Assembly (NCBI RefSeq): GCF_014643695.1
Contig: NZ_BMJY01000003.1
Span: 186,001 to 250,000 of the forward strand
Source: Microbacterium album
GTDB taxonomy: Bacteria; Actinomycetota; Actinomycetes; Actinomycetales; Microbacteriaceae
Direction: 5' to 3'
DNA length: 64,000 nt
The notes under the pieces are model-generated. The model was not told the origin of the DNA, ran no database searches, and saw nothing but the letters and a program-made list of their open reading frames with translations. Positions 280 to 61,989 of this stretch are shown piece after piece. The translations under genes were made by a program, and so were the position numbers. Each line of letters begins with the position of its first letter. Positions within the stretch are counted from its first letter, which is position 1.

Positions 280-1269
280 ATGTCCCCCGAGACAGCACAC
301 AACAAGACCGCCGTGATCATCGAGGACGACCCCGATGTGCGGCATGTGCTGGTCGGCGTGCTCGAATCCGCCGGGTTCTCGACGGTTTCGGTCGGCAACG
401 GCATCGACGGCGTGCAGGCGGTGCTGACCTATCGGCCCGCCCTGACGACGCTCGACCTGAACATCCCCGGCATCGACGGGTTCGAGACGGCCCGGCGCAT
501 CCGGGCTCAGAGCGACACGTTCATCATCGTGGTGAGCGCGCTCGACGACGAGGCCGACGTCGTGCTCAGCCTCGGCGCGGGCGCGGACGAGTACATCACC
601 AAGCCGTTCCGCGCACGCGAGTTCCGCGCCCGGATCGACGCGGTGATGCGTCGCCAGCAGCCCGTGCCCGCCCCGCCGCAGCAGCGGCCCGAGAGCGTCG
701 GCCCCTCGTTTCCGGGCGGCCGACAGCACCTGCAGGCGTACGCAGGGCACGCATACGCGCAGCCTCCGGTATCGGCGGCCGACCGGATCGCGCCCGCTCC
801 GCCCGTCTATGCGATGCCCTCCGGCGCCCCCAGCGCCCCCGCCGACGCCTGGGTGGCACCTTCGCCGGCGGGCGCGACCGCCCCGGGCACGGAGCTCGAG
901 CTCGCAGACGGCGGGGACGGCGCCGGCGAGCGATGGCTCCGCCACCGCGATCTGCGCCTGAACCCCGAGACCCGCGTCGTGATCGCCGGCGACCGCGTCC
1001 TCGAACTCACCCGGACCGAGTTCGACCTGCTCGCCACCCTGCTCGAGTCGAAGCGCCGCGTGCGCAGCAAGGCCGACCTGACCCTGGTGCTGCGCGGCGA
1101 GTCGTATGTCACGTCGTACTTCGTGGGCGAAGCCGACAAGCGCGCCGTGGAGGCGCACATGACGAACCTGCGTCGCAAGCTGGGCGACTCCGCGGCGAGC
1201 CCGCGGTACATCGAGACGGTGCGCGGGGTCGGCTACCGGCTCACCGCGGAGGTGCTGACGGGGCCGTGA
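280..1269 (+). CDS. OmpR-family response regulator with long Pro/Ala linker
   Basis: The 329-residue protein has an N-terminal receiver domain (about residues 9-122) with acidic pair D16/D17, phosphoacceptor D59 in TTLDLNIPG, S86 and K108 in ITKPF. A C-terminal winged helix (about 232-326) shows LTRTEFDLLATLLE and the closing YIETVRGVGYRLT typical of OmpR/PhoB proteins, which bind DNA as tandem dimers. Between them is an unusually long low-complexity linker of about 110 residues rich in Pro and Ala; OmpR family linkers are usually 5-20 residues. The ATG at 280 follows GAAGGTGG at a normal distance and was preferred over an in-frame start at 232. No histidine kinase is adjacent; an orphan kinase gene lies at 5614-7275. 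Targets are unknown, but the GH6 and GT2 neighbours are candidates. Confidence 0.88.
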   Translation: MSPETAHNKTAVIIEDDPDVRHVLVGVLESAGFSTVSVGNGIDGVQAVLTYRPALTTLDLNIPGIDGFETARRIRAQSDTFIIVVSALDDEADVVLSLGAGADEYITKPFRAREFRARIDAVMRRQQPVPAPPQQRPESVGPSFPGGRQHLQAYAGHAYAQPPVSAADRIAPAPPVYAMPSGAPSAPADAWVAPSPAGATAPGTELELADGGDGAGERWLRHRDLRLNPETRVVIAGDRVLELTRTEFDLLATLLESKRRVRSKADLTLVLRGESYVTSYFVGEADKRAVEAHMTNLRRKLGDSAASPRYIETVRGVGYRLTAEVLTGP

Positions 1270-47247: not shown

Positions 47248-48104
47248 GCGAACCACCTCCGCGGCTCGGGGAGCCGCCCGATGCGGATCATGACGCGGTA
47301 CGCCACGAACGAGACCGCCGCGCCGCCGATCACGAGCGCGACGCCCTCGGGGCTCGAGTACGCCTCCGCGCCCTCGGGTCGCAGCGCGAGCAGCGCCAGG
47401 ACGACCCACGGCGCCACGACCCCGAGGACGGCGGCGCCCTTCGTCCACGACTGCCGGGACTCGACCTCTCCGCGCAGCGCCGCATCGGCGCGCACCGACG
47501 CGGACAGCGCCCGCAGGACCGGCACGAGCTCGGTGCCGCCCACCTGGCGTGCCATGCGCAGCGTCTCCACGATGCGATCCGCCATCGGATCGGCGAGGGC
47601 GGCCTTGAGTAGATCCGCGCTGGAGTCGAAGTGACCCGAGGCCGCGATGTCCCGTTCGAACCTTGCGAACGCGGGCCGCAGGCTCGGCGGTGCCGACACG
47701 GCCAGGCTGGCGACGGCATCCGGGAGGGACATCCCCGCGCGGACGGACGCGATCAGGAGGTCGCACACATCCGGCCACAGCGCGCGTCGGGCCCGAAGCA
47801 GGCGCGAGCGACGGGCGCGGAGCCAGGCGATCGGCGCCCAGCCCCCCACCGCGAGCCCGAGCACCGCGAGGGCCAGGACGCCCGTCGCCAGCCAGGCGAC
47901 CGCGGCCGTGACGAGTCCTGCCGCGATGCAGCCCAGCAGCAGGACCCGCTCGGGAACGTGCGCGAAACCCGCCGAGGCCAGGAGCCGCCCGAGCGCGCTC
48001 GCACCGGGGCTCCGTCGAGGCGGACGGGGACGCCGCGGCCACAGCCACGGCGAGAGCGTGAGCAGCAGCCCCGCCGCGAGCACGGCTCCCCACAGGACGG
48101 TCAT
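47244..48104 (-). CDS. tadB: Type II secretion F-family protein, TadB-like
   Basis: The 286-residue protein has two N-terminal hydrophobic segments and the T2SSF motif WPDVCDLLIASVRAGMSLPDAVASLAV, then ALRMARQVGGTELVPVLRALSASVRADAALRGEVESRQSW spread over the second half of the domain, and two C-terminal helices. It is the usual partner of TadC. ATG 48104 overlaps the tadA stop by four bases. Confidence 0.88.
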   Translation of the reverse strand: MTVLWGAVLAAGLLLTLSPWLWPRRPRPPRRSPGASALGRLLASAGFAHVPERVLLLGCIAAGLVTAAVAWLATGVLALAVLGLAVGGWAPIAWLRARRSRLLRARRALWPDVCDLLIASVRAGMSLPDAVASLAVSAPPSLRPAFARFERDIAASGHFDSSADLLKAALADPMADRIVETLRMARQVGGTELVPVLRALSASVRADAALRGEVESRQSWTKGAAVLGVVAPWVVLALLALRPEGAEAYSSPEGVALVIGGAAVSFVAYRVMIRIGRLPEPRRWFA

Positions 48105-49273
48105 CGGCTCGCCTCCCGGTACGGGGCTCGGTAGAGCGTCTCCGTCTCCGGCAGCTCGCCCAGGATGCGTCCCGTGGTCCGCACGATCTCCGCCACGCGG
48201 CGCTCGCCGGATCCGGTGCGCTCGCAGTGCACGACGAGATCCACGCTCGACGCCACGGCGTGGAGGACGAAGCCGCGATCGATGTTGCGTCCGGCGAGCA
48301 GCGGGAGCGCGGCGAGCTTGCCCAGCGCATCCACCGCGGAGTTGGCGTGGATCGTCGCCGCGCCGGGCACGCCGGTGTTGAGAGCCAGCAGGAGATCGAG
48401 CGCCTCGGCGTCACGCACCTCGCCCACGACCAGACGGTCGGGACGCATCCGCAACGCCTCCTTCACCAGGCGCCGCAACGTGATCTCGCCCGTGCCCTCG
48501 AGACTCGGCTGCCGTCCCTGCAGCGCCACGAGATCCGGGGCGTCGACACCGAGCTCGAAGGTCTCCTCCACCGTGATGATCCGCTGCTGGGGCGGGCACG
48601 CCCCCACGAGCGCGCCGAGCATCGTCGTCTTGCCCGCGTGCGTCGCCCCCGACACCAGCACGCTGCGCCCGTCCCGCATCGCCTCGGACAACAACCCCGC
48701 CGCCTCCGGGCTGAGCGAGCCGAGCTGCACAAGCCGGTCGAGAGAGCGATAGCCGGGCAGGAACTTCCGGATATTGACGGCCCAGTGCTTCCGGGCGATG
48801 CCGCCGATCACGACGTGCAGACGGGAGCCGTCGGGTAGCGACGCATCCACGAACGGCTGGCTCAGGTCGACGCGGCGCCCCGTGGAGTGCAGCATGCGCT
48901 CGACGAGATCGCGCACAGCGGCGTCCGTGAGCGCGACCGGCACGCGCTCGGACACGCCGCCCCGCGCGACGAAGACCCGGTCCGGGGCGTTCAGCCACAG
49001 CTCCTCGACGGTCGGATCGTCCAGATACGGCTGCAGCGGCCCGTAGCCCGTCACGGCCGCCACGACCTCGCGCACGCGCGCGGGTTCGTCCTCCAGGGGC
49101 GCCAGGCCCCGCGCCAGGGCGAGATCGTTGTGGTGCCGCAGCTCGGAGCGCGCCACGCGGGCGACCGCCTCGGGCGAACCCGACGGGTCCGTGCGGTCGG
49201 CCCGCAGCCGTTCGCGCACACGCTCGACGAGGGTCGCCGTCGCGCGACCGGTTTCGTGGAGAGGATGCGTCAC
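48101..49273 (-). CDS. tadA: Tad secretion ATPase, CpaF/TadA family
   Basis: The 390-residue secretion ATPase has Walker A GATHAGKTT (209-217), Asp box and Walker B region ITVEETFELGVD, and the His box TGEITLRRLVKEALRMRPDRL with VGEVRDAEALDLLLALNTG (residues about 265-305). It is a hexameric motor for Flp pilus assembly. A GTG start at 49273 gives MTHPLHETG; SD is weak. It is the first gene of a seven-gene minus-strand operon (tadA, B, C, flp-like, tadE, tadE, tadG-like). No TadZ/CpaE ATPase and no prepilin peptidase are found in the window. Confidence 0.92.
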   Translation of the reverse strand: MTHPLHETGRATATLVERVRERLRADRTDPSGSPEAVARVARSELRHHNDLALARGLAPLEDEPARVREVVAAVTGYGPLQPYLDDPTVEELWLNAPDRVFVARGGVSERVPVALTDAAVRDLVERMLHSTGRRVDLSQPFVDASLPDGSRLHVVIGGIARKHWAVNIRKFLPGYRSLDRLVQLGSLSPEAAGLLSEAMRDGRSVLVSGATHAGKTTMLGALVGACPPQQRIITVEETFELGVDAPDLVALQGRQPSLEGTGEITLRRLVKEALRMRPDRLVVGEVRDAEALDLLLALNTGVPGAATIHANSAVDALGKLAALPLLAGRNIDRGFVLHAVASSVDLVVHCERTGSGERRVAEIVRTTGRILGELPETETLYRAPYREASR

Positions 49274-49359: not shown

Positions 49360-52300
49360 TCACTCGTCCTGCGCGCCCGGCTCGGAACCCGCCTCTCGCG
49401 TGCGCCGGCGGTGCCGCGACGCCAGCAGGAGCGCTGCGCCGAGCAGGAGCGCGATGGCCGCCCCGGCGATCGTCCACGTGGCGATCTCGCTCCCCGTCGC
49501 CGGCAGCGGGCGCCCGGGCAGGAGAGGACCGGGGTCCTCCGGCCCGCCGGCCCCCGGAGGCGTGCCCGGGTCCGTCGGCGGCGGGGTGGTCGGGGGCGGC
49601 CCCGGCGGCTCCTCGGGCACCCAGGTGTTCACGAACACGACGGCGTCCGCCGGCGTTCCGGTCGGCGCGCCGCCGTCGTCGGCGGCCTGTGTGTACGACA
49701 CCTCGGTGACCAGCCCACCTGCCGCCTCGGCGACCTCGACGGTCACGTCGTACACGGCCTGCGAGTACGTCATGCCGTCGCTCGGAGCGGACGGCACGAC
49801 CTCCGCGATGCGATAGGTCCAGGTGCCGATGTCCACGTACTCCATCGCCGGGAACACGGGTGCACGCTGGTCGGCCGTCGCCGTGACCGTGGCGACGCCC
49901 CCGACCGCGCCATCCGGCAGAGGCGCCGTCGCCGCGTTGTCGCCCGTCGCGGTGAGCGTGAACACGAACGCGTCGTCCGCCGTCCAGTCCCGGCCCTCGA
50001 TCCGCTTCTCGACGGGGATCTCGACCTCCGCCGGCGGCAGATGCCGGTTCGTGAACACGGGCGTCTCGGCGGCGCCCGTCCCGGGGCCGCCGTCGTCCGC
50101 CACCGTCTGCTCGATCGTGGTCTGCGCGGACAGGGCGCCGTTCGGGGCCTCGGTCACGGTGACCGTGACGAGATACTCGGCGAGCGACCAGCGCTCGCCC
50201 GGGCCCGTGGGGTCGGGAACCTCCTCCGCCACCAGGTACGTCCAGGTGCCGGGCCCGGTGAAGACCATCTCGCCGAACGTCGTCGTGTGGTCGGGGGTGG
50301 CGTTCGTGATCGTGACCGAGGCGATGCCGCCCTGGGCTCCGGGCGGGAGCGGGGCGGTGCCCGCCTCCGGCCCGGTCGGGGTGAGGGTGAAGATGAACGC
50401 GTCGTCCCGGCTCCACTCGCGACCGGTCACCACCTTCTGCACGGGGATGTCGGCCGTCACGGTCGGCTCCTCGTACAGATTGGTGAACACGGGCGTCGGG
50501 TGATCGCCCGGCACCGTGTCGCCGCTGCCGTCGTCGGCCGTCGCCTGCGTGATCTCGTGGGACACGGTGAGCCGATCATCTTCGCGCTGCACCAGGACGC
50601 TCACGACGTAACGCGCCTGCGAGTACGTCACGCCGGCGAGAGGATCGGCCGGCGGCCGCTCCACGATCTCGTACTGGTACAGGCCCGGCTCGGCGTACTC
50701 GATCTGGCCGAACTCGGTCCCCTGGAACTCGGCGCCCACGGTCACGGACGCGACGCCGCCCACGGCGTCGGCGGGCATCGGCGCTCCGGCTGTGATCGGG
50801 CGGAGGTCGAACGTGAACTCGTCGTCCGCGGTCCAGGCGTCCACGCCGTCCGCGTCCACGAAGGCCTTGGCCACGGGGAACGCGTCGCGCACCGGGAGCG
50901 GCGTGTAGGTGTTCGTGAACGCCATGTCCGAGGCCGGTGCGCCGACGGTCCCGCCTGCGTCGTCGAGCAGCTGGACGATCTCGCTCGTCGCGGTCAGCGA
51001 TCCGGCGCCGTCGTCGGCGACCGTGACCGTGATCTGATAGCGCGCCTGCGAGTACGTCACGCCCTCCGCGCCGGGGCTGGGCGCACGTTCGAAGACCTCG
51101 TACGTCCAGGTGCCCACGGTGCCGTAGCGGATGTCGCCGAAGACAGCGGTCCAGTCGGGCGCGACCGCGGATGCCGCGGCCTCGCCTCCGACCGCGTCGC
51201 CCGGCATCGGCGTCGTGGCGGCGGCCGGACCGGTCGGCACCAGCACGAAGTCGAAGCGGTCGTCGTCGCGCAGCGCGCGCCCGTCCAGCCCCTTCGTCGC
51301 CTCGAAGCCGTCCAGGACCGCCGGCGCAGCGGTGTACGCGTTCGTGAACAGCGCGTTCCCGGTCACGGCCTCGGACGTCGTCTCGCCCGCATCTCCGACC
51401 ACGCGGGTGACCTGCCGGTCCAGGGTCATCGTGCCGTCGCCGTTGTCGGCGACCGTCACGACGACCTCGTACCGGGCCTGGGAGAAGGCGACGCCGTCCC
51501 CGACTCCCGTCTGCTGTTCGGAGATGACGTACGTGTAGACGCCCGGCTGCGTGTACACGATGTCGCCGAACGATGCCGCCAGCCCCGGCGTGTCGGCATC
51601 GATCGTCACCGTCGCGGTCGGAGGCGTGCCGCTCGCGCCACCCGGCATGGGCGTGCTCGCCGCGCCGGGCCCGGTCGCCTCCAGCACGAACGTGAACGCG
51701 TCCCCACCCTGCCAGGGGCGCCCAGTGAGGTCCTTCTCGACGCCGAACGCGTCCGAGACCGGCTCCACCGAGTAGGTGTTGACGAAGTCGAAACGCGGGT
51801 CGCCGGAGATCGCGACCGCGAGCGTGCCGTCGCCGTTGTCGGTCAGGGTGACCGTGAAGGTCTGCGGGTCGCTGTCCACGCTCACGCCCGGCGCCGCGCC
51901 CGCTTCCGTGCGGCGCTCGGTCACCTCGTACGTGAAGGTGCGGGTCGGCTCCCCGCCGAGCAGGTCGAGCGAGAACGTCGCGGAACCGAAGTCGACCAGT
52001 CCCTCGGCGTCGTTCACCTCCTCGACGAAGCGGTCGGCTCCCACCCCCTGCGTCCCGTCCGGCATCGGCGCGATAGCGGCGAACTCACCCACGGGGCGCA
52101 GCACGAAGGTGAAGTCCCCCTCGATCTCGCCGATGGCCAGCGCAGTGCCCGGAGCGTTCTGGAGCGTCTTCAGAGCGTAGAACGGCACCGGCACGTCATC
52201 GGTCGCATACGTGTTCGTGAACTCCACCGCCGGGCGGCCGCCGAGATAGGGCTCGGCGTCGACCGTCCCGTCGCCGTTGTCGCGGATCAGCACCCAGACG

Positions 52301-55300
52301 TTCTCGACCGTGCGCCCCGGCGTCACCCCCGGCGGCAGGTTGTCAGTGACCTCTGCCACACGCAGCCGCAGGATGACGATGTTGCCGCTGCGCGTGGCCC
52401 AGCCCTGCTCCACCGCCTCGAGGAGTTCCGCGGTGGTCAGACGCAGCGGCTGGTCACCGGGCGTGGACGGATCGGCATCGAACTGGATCGCGCCCGGCTC
52501 CCCCGCGGCGGCCGCCGCGTTGGTGCCCGTCGCCAGGGTGCGGGACGGATCGTTCTGCGGCGTGATGACGAAGGTGAAGTCCCCCGCGTCGAGCGGCTGT
52601 CCGCTCAGGGACTTCGTCGCCGGGATGACGAACTCGGCCTCCGTGGCGTACTCGTTCACGAAGGCGACGGTGGCGGCGCCGTCCGCCGCATCCGGCGGGA
52701 TCGTGCCCGTCGCGGTGCCGCCGCTCGGGCTCGCGACCGAGTAGCCCGGTGGCAGCCCGGTCTCCGTGACGGTGAACGCCGCGCCCAGCGGGAGGTCGTA
52801 GATGCGCGCGGTCTCCCCGTGATGCAGCACGATCTGGGCGACGCCGCCGGCGAACGCGACCATCTCCGCGCGCGTCTCGGCGCCCGTCGCCGCGTCGACG
52901 TACGCCACGCGGTACTCACCGTCGGGCAGCCCGTCGACCGCCACGTCGAACGTGAACTCCCGCTCGCCGAGGTCCGGAAGGTAGCCGGGGGCGGGCTCCT
53001 GGACCGACTTCGAGATCTCCAGCGCCGAGCGGTGGTCGGTGATCACGACGGTCTGGTCGATGCTGAACGAGCCCGAGATGTCCGTGTCGGCCGTGACGCC
53101 GCCCGTGTCCTGCGCCGGATAGATGGGCACATCGCTGTAGCCGTGCTCCGTGCGCAGCACGACCGGATCGCCGTCCAGCCCCACATAGGTTCCGTCGTCG
53201 GCCGCCTGGTCGTACTGCAGGTCCGCTTCCGCGACCGGGGCGGACCAGGAGTCGGGGGTCGGCGAATCGGCGGTGACGAGCGCGGCCCGCACCGCGCTGA
53301 GGTCCGCCAGACCGGACACGCGCGTCATCGCGTCGTTCATGCCGCGCCCGATGATGGGCTGCGAGATGCGGCGGACGACGTGCTCGACGGCGACGCTGTC
53401 GAGGGGGTCGGTCACCTCGTCGCCCGCATCGATGCGCACGCCGTTCCGGTCGAGCCACGCCGGAATGGGGTGCACCGGCAGGTAGCCCTCGGGCGCCTGC
53501 GTCTCCCGGATCTCCAGCGCACCCGTGCGCGTGCAGCCCTCCGGCGCGACGTACGGGGCGATGTCGGCCGGCGTGAGGGTCAGCTCACCGGACGCATCGG
53601 TGGTCAGGGTGCTCGACCCCTGCGTCCACGCCCGCGTGCCGTCCTCGCACTCGATCTCGCCGAACACCGTGAAGGAGGCGCCGGCGAGCGGGGCTCCGCT
53701 CGCGTCGACTTTGCGCAGGTGAAGCTGATCGAACGACCGGTTCGGGATGCGGACGTCGGCGACCCGGTTGCGCTGGAAGTCCGCCGTGTCGAGGAGGCGG
53801 CGCTCGTCGCCGTCCTGCATGTACACGAGGAGGACGTATCTCGCCCCGCTGTTGTCGGCCCCTGGCGTCCAGTACTCGCGCAGCAGGCCGGGCAGGTCGT
53901 CCAGCTCGGCGCGGTACGTGCCCGAGTCCGGGTGCAGCCACTGCGCGTCGACGCCGTCGAGCCCGCCCGTGATGACGCCCTGCGCATTGGTGGTGAGCGC
54001 GTTTCCGGCCGCCATCTCGAACGAGCCGTCGGCGTACGCCCAGCCGTCGTCATGGCTGCCCGTCAGCGGGTGATAGGTGCCGTCCGGGCCGATCGCCGCG
54101 ACCAGGGCGTACATGCCGTTGCCCCCGTCGGCCGGGCTGGAGGCAGTGACCTCCCGCATGTCCAGGTCCCCGACGGCGGTCCCGTCTGCGGTCACGATGT
54201 CGACCACGTTCGACGCGGGCCGCACCCAGGTGTCGAACGAGATCCACACGCCCGTCTGGGCGTAGTTGACCACCTCGAGCCCGTTGGAGCCGGCCACGTC
54301 GTCGAGCAGCTCGGAATAGCGGATCTGCACGTCGTTCGACAGCGCGCGGTATCCGATCGGCGTCGCGGTCTCGCGCAGCACGAAGTACTCGGTCTCGTAC
54401 TCCCCGAAGTCCACCATGCTGCCGTCGGGGTGCAACAGCGGGAAATCGCCCACGGATCCCGGCGCGCTGCTCGTGGTGTACTCGCCGATGAGGCACGGAG
54501 CGGCGGGCGCGTCGGTGCAGAGCGGCTCATCGCCCGTGACCTGATAGTCGGAGCCGGTGTTGTAGAGGGCGAAGGAGGCGCCGGCGAGCGGCTGACCGTC
54601 CTCGGTGACCTTGTGCCCGGTCGAGACGGGCAACGTGTTGAGGTTGAACTCGAGGGACATGTTCGAGACGTAGTTGCCGCGCTCGAGGTAGAAGAACGCC
54701 AGCTCGTGCACGGTGTTGTCGCCGAACGCGCCCTCGTTCCAGCCGGGAAGCGTCGACGTGCGCTGCCCCGACACGCCCTCCACGGACGTCGTCACGACGC
54801 CCGTGGCGAAGTTGATCGAGCCGTTCGCGATGCCGTGCGTTCCGCCGAGGTCCATCGCAAGCTGCCCGTCGACGAAGACCCAGACGTCGTCGTCGCCCGA
54901 GAAGTTGAAGACCATGTCCTCGGTCGTTCCCTGGGGCGTCTGCACCCGGCCGCCCGGCGGCTGGTAGAACGACGCGCGCATCGCCATGCCGAAGTAGTGG
55001 TTCAGGCGCGGATCCTCGACGGACATGTTGATCGGCGTCTCGCCCGCGAACACCTCGTCAGGCGAGTTGAAGGGAAAGAACTGGCCCACCGTCTGCCCGC
55101 TGCCGCTCGGGCGCATGGCCGAAGGCCGGTCGTACACCTCGAAGCGGCCGTTCGCGTCGTCGAACCACGCGTAGTTCTCCGCCGAGTCATAGCGCAGGAA
55201 GCCGGTGTCGTAGTCGTACTGGAACAGGTTCGGGTTGTTCACGTCGTACGACGCCTTGCCCGGGTTCTCCACCGCAGGGTCGAAGAGGTACCCGAGCGAC

Positions 55301-55833
55301 TCGCGCGGATTGGAGCCGAAGCGGTCCGAACGGGCGGCGACGACCGGCATGCCGTAATCCGACAGGCTCGGCTCGACCGTTCCCGTACCGACGTTCTGGA
55401 TGTCGCCTCGGTTGCCGTTCGGGATCGTCTTGTTGATGCTGAGCGTGTTGTAGACACCGAGGTCTCGGTTGTAGCAGTCGGTCCATTTGATCTGCTTGCC
55501 GAACTTCAGCACGTGTCCGGTCGGGAAGAAGTCGCTGCCGGCCGGTGCGCCGTTGATGCCCGCGCGGTAGTACGACGGATCGCACCCCGCCATCGCGGTG
55601 TCCGGAGACGACTGCGTGCCCGTGACCCAGTAGTCGAACATCGTCATCGTGACGCCCGCAGGGTTGTTCACGGTCTCGACCGTGGGCGGCGCGGCCGCGG
55701 CCGGTTGAGCGGGAACCACGACGAGCCCGGCGACCGCGAGGAGCGTGGTCAACGCCCCCGCGAGCATCCGGCGCGGCACGCCGCGCCTCGCCTCCGCGAT
55801 CCGTGGACGTCGACGACGTATGGGCTGATCCAT
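49360..55833 (-). CDS. Giant LPATG wall-anchored adhesin with fibro-slime/PA14-like head and seven isopeptide domains
   Basis: The 2157-residue protein starts at ATG 55833 (GAGGAGA upstream). A long signal peptide with twin-Arg-free basic n-region ends near AQPAAAAP (about residue 48). Residues about 55-400 form a fibro-slime/PA14-like head containing FNFSGDDDVWVFVDGQLAMD and LGGTHG. SpaA/Cna-B-like domains with GQPLAGASFALYN (about 405) and GAPLAGASFTVFG (about 715) follow, then seven tandem Spy0128/FctA-like pilin domains of about 144 residues (about 1065-2070). A Pro-rich wall spanner leads to LPATG (2110-2114), a hydrophobic helix and RHRRR. It should be covalently linked to peptidoglycan by a sortase. 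It lies 86 bases upstream of the tad operon on the same strand. Confidence 0.9.
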   Translation of the reverse strand: MDQPIRRRRPRIAEARRGVPRRMLAGALTTLLAVAGLVVVPAQPAAAAPPTVETVNNPAGVTMTMFDYWVTGTQSSPDTAMAGCDPSYYRAGINGAPAGSDFFPTGHVLKFGKQIKWTDCYNRDLGVYNTLSINKTIPNGNRGDIQNVGTGTVEPSLSDYGMPVVAARSDRFGSNPRESLGYLFDPAVENPGKASYDVNNPNLFQYDYDTGFLRYDSAENYAWFDDANGRFEVYDRPSAMRPSGSGQTVGQFFPFNSPDEVFAGETPINMSVEDPRLNHYFGMAMRASFYQPPGGRVQTPQGTTEDMVFNFSGDDDVWVFVDGQLAMDLGGTHGIANGSINFATGVVTTSVEGVSGQRTSTLPGWNEGAFGDNTVHELAFFYLERGNYVSNMSLEFNLNTLPVSTGHKVTEDGQPLAGASFALYNTGSDYQVTGDEPLCTDAPAAPCLIGEYTTSSAPGSVGDFPLLHPDGSMVDFGEYETEYFVLRETATPIGYRALSNDVQIRYSELLDDVAGSNGLEVVNYAQTGVWISFDTWVRPASNVVDIVTADGTAVGDLDMREVTASSPADGGNGMYALVAAIGPDGTYHPLTGSHDDGWAYADGSFEMAAGNALTTNAQGVITGGLDGVDAQWLHPDSGTYRAELDDLPGLLREYWTPGADNSGARYVLLVYMQDGDERRLLDTADFQRNRVADVRIPNRSFDQLHLRKVDASGAPLAGASFTVFGEIECEDGTRAWTQGSSTLTTDASGELTLTPADIAPYVAPEGCTRTGALEIRETQAPEGYLPVHPIPAWLDRNGVRIDAGDEVTDPLDSVAVEHVVRRISQPIIGRGMNDAMTRVSGLADLSAVRAALVTADSPTPDSWSAPVAEADLQYDQAADDGTYVGLDGDPVVLRTEHGYSDVPIYPAQDTGGVTADTDISGSFSIDQTVVITDHRSALEISKSVQEPAPGYLPDLGEREFTFDVAVDGLPDGEYRVAYVDAATGAETRAEMVAFAGGVAQIVLHHGETARIYDLPLGAAFTVTETGLPPGYSVASPSGGTATGTIPPDAADGAATVAFVNEYATEAEFVIPATKSLSGQPLDAGDFTFVITPQNDPSRTLATGTNAAAAAGEPGAIQFDADPSTPGDQPLRLTTAELLEAVEQGWATRSGNIVILRLRVAEVTDNLPPGVTPGRTVENVWVLIRDNGDGTVDAEPYLGGRPAVEFTNTYATDDVPVPFYALKTLQNAPGTALAIGEIEGDFTFVLRPVGEFAAIAPMPDGTQGVGADRFVEEVNDAEGLVDFGSATFSLDLLGGEPTRTFTYEVTERRTEAGAAPGVSVDSDPQTFTVTLTDNGDGTLAVAISGDPRFDFVNTYSVEPVSDAFGVEKDLTGRPWQGGDAFTFVLEATGPGAASTPMPGGASGTPPTATVTIDADTPGLAASFGDIVYTQPGVYTYVISEQQTGVGDGVAFSQARYEVVVTVADNGDGTMTLDRQVTRVVGDAGETTSEAVTGNALFTNAYTAAPAVLDGFEATKGLDGRALRDDDRFDFVLVPTGPAAATTPMPGDAVGGEAAASAVAPDWTAVFGDIRYGTVGTWTYEVFERAPSPGAEGVTYSQARYQITVTVADDGAGSLTATSEIVQLLDDAGGTVGAPASDMAFTNTYTPLPVRDAFPVAKAFVDADGVDAWTADDEFTFDLRPITAGAPMPADAVGGVASVTVGAEFQGTEFGQIEYAEPGLYQYEIVERPPADPLAGVTYSQARYVVSVLVQREDDRLTVSHEITQATADDGSGDTVPGDHPTPVFTNLYEEPTVTADIPVQKVVTGREWSRDDAFIFTLTPTGPEAGTAPLPPGAQGGIASVTITNATPDHTTTFGEMVFTGPGTWTYLVAEEVPDPTGPGERWSLAEYLVTVTVTEAPNGALSAQTTIEQTVADDGGPGTGAAETPVFTNRHLPPAEVEIPVEKRIEGRDWTADDAFVFTLTATGDNAATAPLPDGAVGGVATVTATADQRAPVFPAMEYVDIGTWTYRIAEVVPSAPSDGMTYSQAVYDVTVEVAEAAGGLVTEVSYTQAADDGGAPTGTPADAVVFVNTWVPEEPPGPPPTTPPPTDPGTPPGAGGPEDPGPLLPGRPLPATGSEIATWTIAGAAIALLLGAALLLASRHRRRTREAGSEPGAQDE
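49620..52650 (-). repeat. Seven tandem domain-encoding repeats, about 430 bases each
   Basis: Each unit starts with a Lys-containing strand (ATKSL, ALKTL, VEKDL, ATKGL, VAKAF, VQKVV, VEKRI), then (E/A)F.F.L, a G-x-W/Y-T-Y-x-(V/I)-x-E strand and ends F(T/V)N(T/A/L/R)(Y/H/W). The ends lie near 52210, 51775, 51340, 50910, 50480, 50050 and 49630. Lys, Glu and Asn are the residues that form intramolecular isopeptide bonds in FctA-type pilins. DNA identity between units is moderate, so they are old duplications. Confidence 0.85.
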
Positions 55834-55984
55834 GCAGGTCTCCTCGCTCGTCCCCCCGCGCGGGCGTGTTGACACTTGCCGCACACGATACTCACAGATG
55901 CATGTCAGCAACAGGGTCACCGGCCAACAGGCATGCCGATATGGCGAAGGCGGCCGGCGCGGCGGTCGTTACACTGAACGTCAC

Positions 55985-56066
55985 GCGGGAGTGGTGAAAT
56001 TGGCAGACACGCAGGATTTAGGTTCCTGTGCCTCCGGGCGTGTGGGTTCAAGTCCCACCTTCCGCA
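55985..56066 (+). tRNA. tRNA-Leu (anticodon TAG)
   Basis: GCGGGAGTGGTGAAATTGGC begins a class II tRNA. The anticodon arm is CAGGA-TTTAGGT-TCCTG (anticodon TAG), a long variable arm follows (TGCCTCCGGGCGT), the T arm is GTGGGTTCAAGTCCCAC, and the acceptor end is CTTCCGC plus A. CCA is not encoded. TTACACT at 55964-55970 is a plausible -10 element. Confidence 0.97.
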
Positions 56067-56083
56067 CGGCCGGTCGAGAGCCG

Positions 56084-56101
56084 GGACGAGCATGCTCGTC
56101 C
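56084..56101 (+). terminator. Palindrome downstream of tRNA-Leu
   Basis: GGACGAGC-AT-GCTCGTCC is a perfect 18-base palindrome 17 bases past the tRNA end, followed by GAAAG. It probably ends the tRNA transcript, though no T tract follows. Confidence 0.45.
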
Positions 56102-56159
56102 GAAAGCCCCTCCCCGCGACCCCACGCAGCACACGCCATCACCCGAGACGAGACCCCCG

Positions 56160-56906
56160 TTGCGCCCGACCGCACTCATCCCCTGGCTGGACCCGCAATC
56201 CATCATCGAGGCGGCAGGTCCATGGGCCCTCCTCGTCGTGTGCCTCATCGTGTTCTCGGAGACGGGCCTGCTCGTCGGCTTCCTGCTGCCCGGCGACACG
56301 CTCCTGATCATCGCGGGCGTGCTGACCAACACCGTCAACGTGTTCGGCGTGAACATCTGGGTGGCGAGCGGCCTCATCGCACTGGCGGCGTTCGTGGGCG
56401 GCGAGGTCGGATACATGATCGGTCACAAGGGCGGGCCCGCCGTGTTCGAGCGCAAGGAATCGGGCCTGTTCAGCACCAAGAACGTCCAGCGCACCAACGC
56501 GTTCTTCGAGAGGTTCGGCGGGCTCACGATCGTGGTCGCCCGCTTCGTGCCCATCGTGCGCACGTTCGCACCGGTCGCGGCCGGGGTCGGCCACATGCCG
56601 TGGCGGCGATACACGCTCTACAACCTGATCGGGGCCCTGCTGTGGGGTTTCGGGCTGACCATGCTCGGCTACCTGATCGCCTTCATCCCGTTCGTGAGCG
56701 ACGTCGTCACCGAGTACATCGACGTCATCCTGATCGCGGCCGTCGGCGGGACGGTGCTCGTCACGCTGTGGCACTACCTGGCCGAGCGGCGCAAGGCGAA
56801 GACCGTCGTCGCGCCGCCGCCCGCCGAGGAGCTCGTGCTCGAGCCGGAGGTCTTCGAACGTGGCGCGGACCTCGACGGCGACGGACGCCCGGACATCCGC
56901 CTCTGA
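56160..56906 (+). CDS. DedA-family (VTT domain) membrane protein
   Basis: The 248-residue protein has DedA hallmarks: FSETGLLVGFLLPGDTLLIIAG near the N-terminus, GGEVGYMIGHKGG, and VARFVPIVRTFAPVAAGVGHMPWRRY followed by NLIGALLWGFGLTMLGY. These proteins are undecaprenyl-phosphate or phospholipid flippase/scramblase-like and support membrane homeostasis. The open frame continues upstream into tRNA-Leu, so a start after 56066 is needed. TTG 56160 is the best in-frame candidate (MRPTALIPWLDP), giving the usual family N-terminus; SD is weak. The C-terminal 35 residues are acidic. Confidence 0.88.
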   Translation: MRPTALIPWLDPQSIIEAAGPWALLVVCLIVFSETGLLVGFLLPGDTLLIIAGVLTNTVNVFGVNIWVASGLIALAAFVGGEVGYMIGHKGGPAVFERKESGLFSTKNVQRTNAFFERFGGLTIVVARFVPIVRTFAPVAAGVGHMPWRRYTLYNLIGALLWGFGLTMLGYLIAFIPFVSDVVTEYIDVILIAAVGGTVLVTLWHYLAERRKAKTVVAPPPAEELVLEPEVFERGADLDGDGRPDIRL

Positions 56907-56958
56907 CCTCGACCTCTGACCGCCGGACGCCACGGCGCCGACATCCGGGGAGGCCCGG

Positions 56959-57858
56959 CTAGGACGCCTTCTTGGAGCGCTTCCGCTTGGGCTTGTCCGC
57001 GTCGCCGTCACGCGCCTCGCCGGCATCCGCTTCGCCGCCGTCCGCGTCCTTCTCCCCGTCGGCCTTTCCGCCGCGGGAGGCCCGGGATCGCTCGACGCTG
57101 GCGCGCAGCGCCTCCATGAGGTCGATGACCTCGCCGCCTTCCTCGCTCTCCTCGCCGAAGGTCGCGTCCGTGTCGATCGCGTCGCCCTTCTCGAGCTTGG
57201 CCTGGATGAGCGTGCGCAGCTCCTTCTGGTACTCGTCCACGTACTCGTCGGGGTCGAAGTCGCTCGAGAAGCTCTCGACGAGACTCGCCGACAGCTCGAG
57301 CTCCTTCTTCGAGATCTTCACGTCGGTCTCCAGCGACGGGAACGCCGCCTGTCTCACCTCGTCGGACCACAGCAGGGTCTGGAGCATGAGCACGTCGCCG
57401 CGCACGCGCAACGCCGCCAGACGCGTCTTCTGCCGGAGGGAGAAGCGCACGATCGCCGTGCGGTCCGTCTGTTCGAGCGTGCGGCGCAGCAGCACGTAGG
57501 CCTTGGGCGACGCCGAGTCGGGCTCGAGGAAGTACGACTTGTCGAACGTGATGGGGTCGACCTGCTCGCTCGGAACGAACTCCACGACGTCGATCTCGCG
57601 GCTGCGCTCGGAGGGAAGCGACTTGAGGTCCTCGTCGGTCAGGACGACCGTGCGGTCCCCGTCATCGTACGCGCGGTCGATGTCCGCATACGCCACGATC
57701 TCCCCGCACACCTCGCAGCGACGCTGATACCGGATGCGCCCGCCATCCGCGTTGTGCACCTGGTGAAGCGACACGTCGTGGTCCTCCGTCGCCGCGTACA
57801 CCTTCACGGGCACGTTCACGAGCCCGAAGGTGAGCGCACCTTTCCAGATCGACCTCAT
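56959..57858 (-). CDS. ku: Ku-type DNA end-binding protein of non-homologous end joining
   Basis: The 299-residue protein has the prokaryotic Ku core: MRSIWKGALTFGLVNVPVKVY, a CEVCG zinc-knuckle remnant in RYQRRCEVCGEIVAY, YFLEPDSASPKAYVLLRRTLE and LRVRGDVLMLQTLLWSDEVR. A Lys/Asp-rich C-terminal tail of about 60 residues (to KPKRKRSKKAS) is typical of actinobacterial Ku and binds DNA. It homodimerises on double-strand break ends and recruits LigD, encoded divergently 78 bases away. Confidence 0.96.
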   Translation of the reverse strand: MRSIWKGALTFGLVNVPVKVYAATEDHDVSLHQVHNADGGRIRYQRRCEVCGEIVAYADIDRAYDDGDRTVVLTDEDLKSLPSERSREIDVVEFVPSEQVDPITFDKSYFLEPDSASPKAYVLLRRTLEQTDRTAIVRFSLRQKTRLAALRVRGDVLMLQTLLWSDEVRQAAFPSLETDVKISKKELELSASLVESFSSDFDPDEYVDEYQKELRTLIQAKLEKGDAIDTDATFGEESEEGGEVIDLMEALRASVERSRASRGGKADGEKDADGGEADAGEARDGDADKPKRKRSKKAS

Positions 57859-61843: not shown

Positions 61844-61855
61844 GGCCTGCTCCTT

Positions 61856-61897
61856 GGCAAGTCTTGTCGCGCACCGGGTACTTGACCATCGTCCGGG
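61856..61897 (-). promoter_or_regulatory. Guanidine-III (ykkC-III) riboswitch
   Basis: On the minus strand the leader reads CCCGGACGATGG, then TCAAG, TACCCGGT, GCGC, GACAAGAC and TTGCC, ending where AAGGAG begins. The conserved strings CCGGACGA, TACCCGGT and GACAAGAC occur in the order and spacing of the guanidine-III consensus. CAAGT can pair with ACTTG, and CCGG with CCGG for the pseudoknot. Because the 3' stem abuts the SD, ligand binding probably changes translation of the exporter gene. One U-C mismatch breaks the longer stem. Confidence 0.88.
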
Positions 61898-61989
61898 AGC
61901 CGCATCCCGCAGCTCTCTTCCATGATGCCGCCTCACCCTGAGCACCACCAAGGCAGGTCACGGGTTCGTCACACGCCTAGGATCTTCTG

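Follow-up and report, generated by a model that had tools for sequence, protein, structure and literature searches.

The window analysed here is a stretch of 64,000 nucleotides from Microbacterium album (contig NZ_BMJY01000003.1, positions 186,001 to 250,000); positions below are counted from its first letter. At 49360..55833 its minus strand carries a gene for a protein of 2157 amino acids (aa), with the ATG at 55833 and the stop at 49360. We consider it likely that this protein is a fibrillar adhesin of a single chain, anchored by sortase, whose stalk is covalently locked and whose head binds carbohydrate, the likeliest ligand being a polysaccharide. A preliminary description made from the sequence alone had placed the open reading frame (ORF) correctly but had given no strand. 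The gene call rests on the ORF list, on Pfam and NCBIfam matches and on the GC content at each codon position.

The minus strand was assigned as coding because its codon-position GC of 0.68/0.52/0.93 (0.93 being the third-position value, GC3) fits a GC-rich coding gene. A plus-strand ORF of 2153 aa (49411-55872) is open antisense to nearly the whole adhesin, and is read as an apparent by-product of high GC. The GC content of the gene is 0.709 versus 0.718 for the window. Misassembly was considered and is unlikely, since the gene lies inside a 360-kb contig and the neighbourhood of its flanking genes is kept across the genus.

All parts of the protein are given below with their minus-strand positions. 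The chain starts with a putative export signal (residues 1-47, 55693..55833) that has an Arg-rich start, a hydrophobic core and an AAAA end, its boundary being set by eye. After the head (residues 48-400, 54634..55692) come two SpaA domains, a DUF7601 domain and seven FctA domains. A Pro-rich spacer (residues 2076-2109, 49507..49608), recognised from its sequence, leads to the LPATG sortase motif (residues 2110-2114, 49492..49506), behind which lie a hydrophobic stretch and the tail RHRRR. The LPATG anchor of the preliminary description was recovered by the NCBIfam model LPXTG_anchor (18.2 bits versus a cut-off of 15.9). The protein has the parts of a sortase-anchored surface protein, namely an LPXTG motif, a hydrophobic stretch, a basic tail and, by eye, an export signal.

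Above the Pfam cut-offs were seven FctA (PF12892; 381.8 bits versus 22.1, E 9.6e-116), two SpaA (PF17802; 63.2 bits versus 23.1, at about residues 406-504 and 703-798), one DUF7601 (PF24547; 67.3 bits versus 27, residues 938-1062) and one DUF5979 (31.8 bits). NCBIfam gave six strep_pil_rpt stretches and Fibro_Slime in addition to the anchor. Table 1 of a 2025 survey lists FctA, SpaA, DUF7601 and DUF5979 as families with confirmed or predicted isopeptide bonds (PMC12617251).

Candidate isopeptide domains of the stalk

The FctA part of the stalk covers residues 1067-2074, or about 1000 residues. Domain 1 (residues 1067-1212, 52198..52635) has K1074, E1161 and N1207 as its triad; domain 2 (1215-1356, 51766..52191) has K1222, E1306 and N1352; domain 3 (1360-1502, 51328..51756) K1367, E1439 and N1498; domain 4 (1508-1646, 50896..51312) K1514, E1582 and N1641; domain 5 (1648-1790, 50464..50892) K1656, E1725 and N1785; domain 6 (1793-1933, 50035..50457) K1800, E1870 and N1929; and domain 7 (1935-2074, 49612..50031) K1943, E2011 and N2069. 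When the seven were aligned with one another, ten columns were invariant, including those of Lys, Glu and Asn, so that the triad was present in 7/7 domains, just as the preliminary description had stated. Its prediction of a covalently stabilised, single-chain stalk of about 1000 residues agrees with the extent of this array.

The triad was then counted in 111 FctA domains from 21 related proteins. The Glu column held E in 111/111. Of the Lys positions, 69 were K, 3 were N and 1 was D, with 38 gapped; of the Asn positions, 90 were N and 21 gapped. Slightly over half of the domains (56/111) were gapped in at least one triad column; where all three columns were aligned, 51/55 domains had the complete triad. 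In a profile alignment, the Lys, Glu and Asn of the adhesin align with the triad of wild-type Spy0128, and E1725 stands opposite the Ala of the solved Spy0128 E117A mutant.

Domains 3 and 4 were modelled with AlphaFold2 on 29 sequences, comprising six pairs of the adhesin's own domains and 23 of 27 non-redundant pairs from relatives. This two-domain alignment replaced a seven-domain alignment (2405 columns), which was out of register and was discarded. The model was confident (pLDDT 95.9, pTM 0.78) and almost wholly beta. By DSSP, the lysines (K11 and K158 in the model) lie on the first strand, the glutamates (E83 and E226) on a middle strand and the asparagines (N142 and N285) on the last strand. 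The structure prediction proposed in the preliminary description thus gave a CnaB-like fold for these two repeats.

The best Foldseek matches of the model were streptococcal FctA pilins (E ~1e-10), with TM-scores of about 0.3 over the two-domain model. VIA-align gave FctB at Z 14.5 over one domain, and Spy0128 at Z 11.6-11.9 over both domains with a root-mean-square deviation (rmsd) of about 11, which we take to mean a different angle between the modelled domains. Several points count against reading these results as evidence for self-formed bonds. The confident fold model covers two of the seven domains. FctB, the best VIA-align match, has an engineered isopeptide bond only, according to the title of 5ttd; the fold alone is therefore no proof of a bond. 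In the same list, subunits of EMC from yeast and man reach Z 7.5-10.2. The Spy0128 N168A mutant is uninformative, the aligner having placed a gap at the Asn column.

Further candidate triads were found between the head and the FctA array. The counts that follow include the adhesin's own row. The first SpaA/CnaB-like domain begins at residues 401-525 (54259..54633), with K408 and E488, each present in 50/50 rows of a 50-row alignment. Its acceptor was first sought at N523 and near residues 553-561, and was reassigned after the fold search to N698, in a last strand at residues 686-702 (53728..53778); position 698 is N in 43 rows, D in 6 and a gap in 1. For the model of residues 45-705 (described below with the head), the top VIA-align rows were CnaB pilin domains with Z up to 10.2. 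These matches span 358..661 yet align only about 87-120 residues, so the domain is probably interrupted. The range of the matches points to residues 526-685 (53779..54258) as a putative insert and candidate second ligand-binding module.

The second SpaA/CnaB-like domain shows a similar pattern, with a first part at residues 703-800 (53434..53727; K708 and E777), a putative inserted segment at 801-925 (53059..53433), placed from an eight-row alignment, and a last strand at 926-936 (53026..53058) with D933 as candidate acceptor. K708 and E777 were present in 8/8 rows, and the position of D933 held N or D in 8/8. In the DUF7601/DUF5979 domain (residues 937-1063, 52645..53025; Pfam match 938-1062), K942, E1024 and N1060 were likewise present in 8/8 rows. 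With these three, the adhesin is predicted from its triads to form ten cross-links, seven in FctA, two in SpaA and one in DUF7601 domains. The seven isopeptide domains of the preliminary description were all found, but its count was low, as it had missed the SpaA and DUF7601 domains.

If both SpaA domains are split in this way, each would be closed by a Lys-Asn or Lys-Asp bond across its inserted module (526-685 and 801-925). The adhesin could then carry up to three binding modules, and the bond would staple the domain against being pulled open under ligand load. We regard this arrangement as possible but doubtful. The assignment of N698 and D933 as acceptors, made from the alignment and the split VIA-align range, is a weak point of the ten-bond prediction. 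There is a precedent in Spy0125 (Cpa): Table 1 of PMC12617251 lists its SpaA domain with the triad Lys297-Glu347-Asp595 and with two segments, 291-384 and 588-598. For this SpaA domain, to which we confine the likeness, Spy0125 resembles our prediction in having a split CnaB-like domain that a Lys-Asp bond closes across an insertion (compare K708/E777/D933 and, with Asn as acceptor, K408/E488/N698). Where large RTX adhesins have modules that bud from split domains, these modules are described as ligand-binding (PMC12077191). If the arrangement is real and common to the relatives, a split domain stapled around an insert would be a general design of a large adhesin family.

The adhesin also has Cys pairs at residues 84/120, 439/447 and 729/767, which could add disulfides. 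At five of these six positions no relative in the eight-row alignment has Cys; besides the adhesin's own row, one relative has it, at 439 only, and most relatives are gapped at several of the six.

The head and its probable ligand

The head is described as fibro-slime/PA14-like on the basis of a family match, a structure model and PA14 fold matches. The fibro-slime part of this claim, already made in the preliminary description, was supported by the NCBIfam model Fibro_Slime (TIGR02148, residues 306-399; 47.4 bits versus a cut-off of 45), whereas PA14 (PF07691) stayed below its Pfam cut-off (14.7 bits versus 24). Residues 313-333, GDDDVWVFVDGQLAMDLGGTH (54835..54897), contain a GDDD sequence, which was present in 11/11 relatives found by the fibro-slime family model. 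The 50-row head alignment is no test of this conservation, because the pattern used for the scan, F[STA]GDDDVW, is itself present in 49/50 rows.

The head was modelled together with the first SpaA domain (residues 45-705, a 661-residue model) on 50 sequences, the adhesin and 49 of 73 relatives, with pLDDT 77.3 and pTM 0.84. Foldseek matched this model to seven PA14-titled chains (probability 0.93-0.99, E 0.005-0.026), with no matched range stated. Four VIA-align rows fell on the head: 6qe7 (Z 7.6), 2xvg (7.0), 2xvk (6.9) and 6qdi (6.9), all of which presumably carry PA14 domains. We conclude that, at the level of the model, the head has a moderate likeness in fold to sugar-binding PA14 domains.

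In PA14 lectins, sugar is bound through a calcium ion held by a D-cis-D motif (PMC6650083). The GDDD sequence lies at the kind of place that matches this motif and is a candidate calcium/sugar site. Adhesion of Fibrobacter to cellulose has been connected with its fibro-slime proteins, and antibodies block it by 62%, as cited in PMC4668043. According to that description, those of F. succinogenes share the name and a surface role near polysaccharide with the adhesin; they differ in having a Gram-negative host, and we liken them by description only. The head probably binds carbohydrate, as the preliminary description had suggested.

Several observations weaken this conclusion. The Fibro_Slime score is just 2.4 bits over its cut-off, and the PA14 score is sub-threshold. 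The 50/50 conservation of GDDD in the head alignment arose largely by construction, and pLDDT falls below 50 in five stretches of the model. The Z range of 6.9-7.6 may, according to the tool, reflect merely a common arrangement. To our knowledge, none of the close relatives has a known ligand. The head might instead be a structural cap or a protein-binding tip, its PA14 likeness being that of a shared beta-sandwich. The low Z values and the PA14 Pfam score would fit this, as would the absence of the MpAFP and RTX-adhesin PA14 entries of Foldseek from the best 50 VIA-align rows. We judge it rather unlikely in view of the seven PA14-titled Foldseek chains, the four VIA-align rows with their presumed PA14 content, the GDDD sequence in all relatives found by the family model, and the link of fibro-slime proteins with cellulose adhesion.

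With a probable carbohydrate-binding head at its far end, the adhesin most likely works as follows. The protein would be exported, and its LPATG motif would then be joined covalently to the cell wall by a sortase whose gene lies on another contig. The fibro-slime/PA14-like head would meet a carbohydrate surface, likeliest a polysaccharide, and the conserved Asp cluster would perhaps hold calcium for sugar binding. Between the two ends, ten CnaB-like domains would form a rod, each closing its own Lys-Asn or Lys-Asp bond, one per domain, with Glu as the catalyst. Ten such bonds would make the stalk inextensible and resistant to proteases.

Relatives and distribution

Genome samples of the genus, family, class and phylum were searched, and the counts include this genome. 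In the genus, FctA was found in 2/149 genomes, this one and a second (G135) whose match scored 21.6 bits in a frame that by eye resembles a LamG/PKD protein; this genome alone had the head (1/149). A genus-wide gene was rejected on these counts. The head was also confined to this genome in the class sample, both by protein search (1/394) and by family model (1/394). Three of 349 genomes of the family had FctA: this genome, G280, with a single 21-bit match under the cut-off, and G270. In the samples searched, the gene was thus rare in the genus. As a separate observation, G270 carries (L021:2393-7531) a frame of 1712 residues with DUF7601, five FctA domains and a vWA-like head, beside a sortase-like ORF; the vWA and sortase assignments were made by eye.

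In the phylum sample, the fibro-slime model matched 11/386 genomes at E 0.001, 10 of them over its cut-off, and the ten other than ours lie outside the class. SpaA and DUF7601 were present in all of the eleven proteins that these ten genomes gave. Pfam found FctA in seven of these eleven, in 17, 4, 2, 4, 5, 1 and 5 stretches, so that the layout of head, SpaA, DUF7601, n FctA domains (n = 1-17) and anchor was present in 7/11 relatives scanned. Five of the model-found relatives are Collinsella or Olsenella. Over residues 45-1062, the adhesin was 28-33% identical to the seven.

Public genome contigs were scanned with two queries. The head alone gave no matches. The eight-row alignment gave at least 571 relatives among at least 595 matched stretches, and the best 80 of these relatives were from Bacillota, Coriobacteriia or Bifidobacterium, with 25-36% identity over the best segment; from their names, a gut origin seems likely for them. 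Among the matches listed, identity over the best segment did not exceed 36%, and in the eight-row and 50-row alignments identity to the relatives did not exceed 35%. Each of five pairs of loci (L052/L105, L055/L083, L057/L123, L058/L096 and L060/L094) stands for a single record found twice. Among 81 head-bearing frames of the best 80 loci, 21 had FctA, 12 of these in at least four copies, by a model built from the adhesin that is less sensitive than Pfam and missed the single FctA of L059. A plasmid search gave five Bifidobacterium longum plasmids that partly match residues 1058-2063 at 26-29% identity.

The closest parallels are LPXTG proteins of Coriobacteriia (Collinsella aerofaciens, C. 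tanakaei and Olsenella uli), with the same domain order over residues 45-1062, FctA arrays and anchors; Slackia equolifaciens joins them through the adhesin-built FctA model. They differ from the adhesin in how many FctA domains they have (Pfam finds 1-17 in the seven that have any, versus 7), in lacking most of its Cys and in the length of its branch. In a quick tree, the end branch of the adhesin was very long (3.08 changes per column) and lay outside 49 relatives, with unsure placement. The gene's recent acquisition from gut bacteria is not supported, given the GC of 0.709 versus 0.718, the GC3 of 0.93, identities of at most 36% and the branch of 3.08.

A decaying or silent acquired gene without a present role would agree with the presence of the head in this genome alone among the 149 of the genus. 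No sigma-70-like promoter was found for the gene in a search confined to that type, which says little, 0.3 being expected by chance from shuffles. Such a gene is highly improbable, for no stop interrupts the 2157 codons, none of the ten candidate triads has been lost despite about 30% identity to relatives, and GC and GC3 match the surroundings.

The preliminary description had called such stalks known mainly from the pilins of Gram-positive pathogens. This is not supported as worded, as the same architecture occurs in Collinsella, Olsenella and related genera, and commensals are among the carriers named in the 2025 survey, which places most isopeptide domains in Bacillota and Actinomycetota (PMC12617251). 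Nor is the adhesin novel in its architecture, which is common to many relatives and built from isopeptide families known in both phyla. Fibrillar adhesins have already been widely surveyed (PMC9210967, PMC8286594). Mobiluncus mulieris has a giant adhesin of 7651 residues with 51 Ig-like domains, which as described resembles ours in being a single chain of many cross-linked Ig-like domains and differs in having ester, disulfide and thioester links also (PMC10619420); it is likened by description only.

What is unusual is the host, in which the gene is an isolated, deeply divergent copy within its genus. Searches of a paper library found no work combining a fibro-slime domain with isopeptide bonds or with sortase; the sole match for a Collinsella adhesin with isopeptide concerned Parvimonas micra, and that for an FctA domain with Bifidobacterium concerned Streptococcus salivarius. 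The 2025 survey drew on AlphaFold DB models with a length limit of 1280 residues (PMC12617251), so a protein as long as the adhesin would fall outside it. The adhesin adds a lone, highly divergent member, from another class of Actinomycetota, to a large and little-studied family of adhesins predicted to be covalently locked. With about 30% identity to relatives and yet the Lys, Glu and Asn/Asp of ten domains kept, it offers a natural test of whether selection holds cross-links over the surrounding sequence.

Sortases and genomic setting

Spy0128 and other FctA pilins (PDB 3b2m, 8f70 and 4s3l) have the fold and the Lys-Glu-Asn pattern of the adhesin, and FctA is the pilin-backbone family of Spy0128. 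The protein could on this ground be a pilin polymerised by a class C sortase, or a tip adhesin capping a sortase-built pilus. The genome has five sortase matches; two were classified, one as class C and one as class E. The class C sortase (254 bits versus a cut-off of 160) lies less than 200 bases from the end of contig C24, and pilin genes could lie beyond that end. None of the five matches is on contig C3, the 360-kb contig of the adhesin, and no gene cluster pairing the adhesin with the class C sortase was found, the two genes being on C3 and C24. T2SSE and T2SSF genes lie to one side of the adhesin gene, and to the other side lie a VTT-domain gene, Ku and LigD. FctA pilins are subunits that a sortase polymerises, whereas a single adhesin chain already has seven such domains and an anchor motif of its own. 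With 17 stretches by Pfam, the relative richest in FctA likewise ends in its own anchor, LPYTG. A role as pilin or pilus tip is thus quite unlikely, and a single-chain adhesin anchored by its own LPATG motif is preferred.

Three of the sortase-like proteins (C24:10980, C19 and C12; L003-L005) lack, by eye, the usual TLxC motif and are possibly inactive, judging from this motif. The genome has three more LPXTG-type frames of 2171-2348 residues, on contigs C7, C26 and C9 (L153, L154 and L155), with PKD/F5_F8/DUF11, lamin-tail with collagen repeats, and RCC1/Calx-beta/PKD domains, respectively.

The adhesin gene lies in an interval bounded by a T2SSE-family ATPase gene, tad-like by our own reading (48101..49273, minus strand), with the T2SSF gene behind it, and by tRNA-Leu(tag) (55985..56067, plus strand). 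Beyond the tRNA come the VTT-domain gene on the plus strand (within 56028-56906), Ku and LigD. A minus-strand ORF at 56139-57026 had no Pfam match and is probably antisense to the VTT-domain gene.

The interval was readable in 36/59 genomes of the genus, this one included; these had a single full-length T2SSE match on the same contig as Ku. Between the ATPase gene and Ku lay a median of 1.4 kb; here it was 7.7 kb, and in 7/36 genomes more than 3 kb. Seven such intervals were read, of which each had tRNA-Leu(tag) (7/7) and none had an adhesin match (0/7). For example, the interval in G032 holds a NeuB-family gene and a DUF6716 gene instead. Because the length varies and intervals without the adhesin hold other genes, the adhesin gene is at a spot with variable cargo.

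In one genome (G054), a phage-type integrase gene (L030:1928-3121) lies directly 3' of tRNA-Leu(tag) in an interval of 18 kb whose ORFs are phage-like by eye. In 4/59 congeners (G021, G022, G028 and G035), the T2SSE-family ATPase gene was split on one contig, with pieces about 45, 25, 103 and 12 kb apart, and in G026 its pieces were on two contigs, one of them at a contig end. In two split cases, genes for a phage-type integrase (L146) and a large serine recombinase (L149) are found next to the break. Mobile elements seem to have hit this ATPase gene repeatedly. Elsewhere in the window, a guanidine-III riboswitch was found at 61853-61918 on the minus strand (52.4 bits versus a cut-off of 36).

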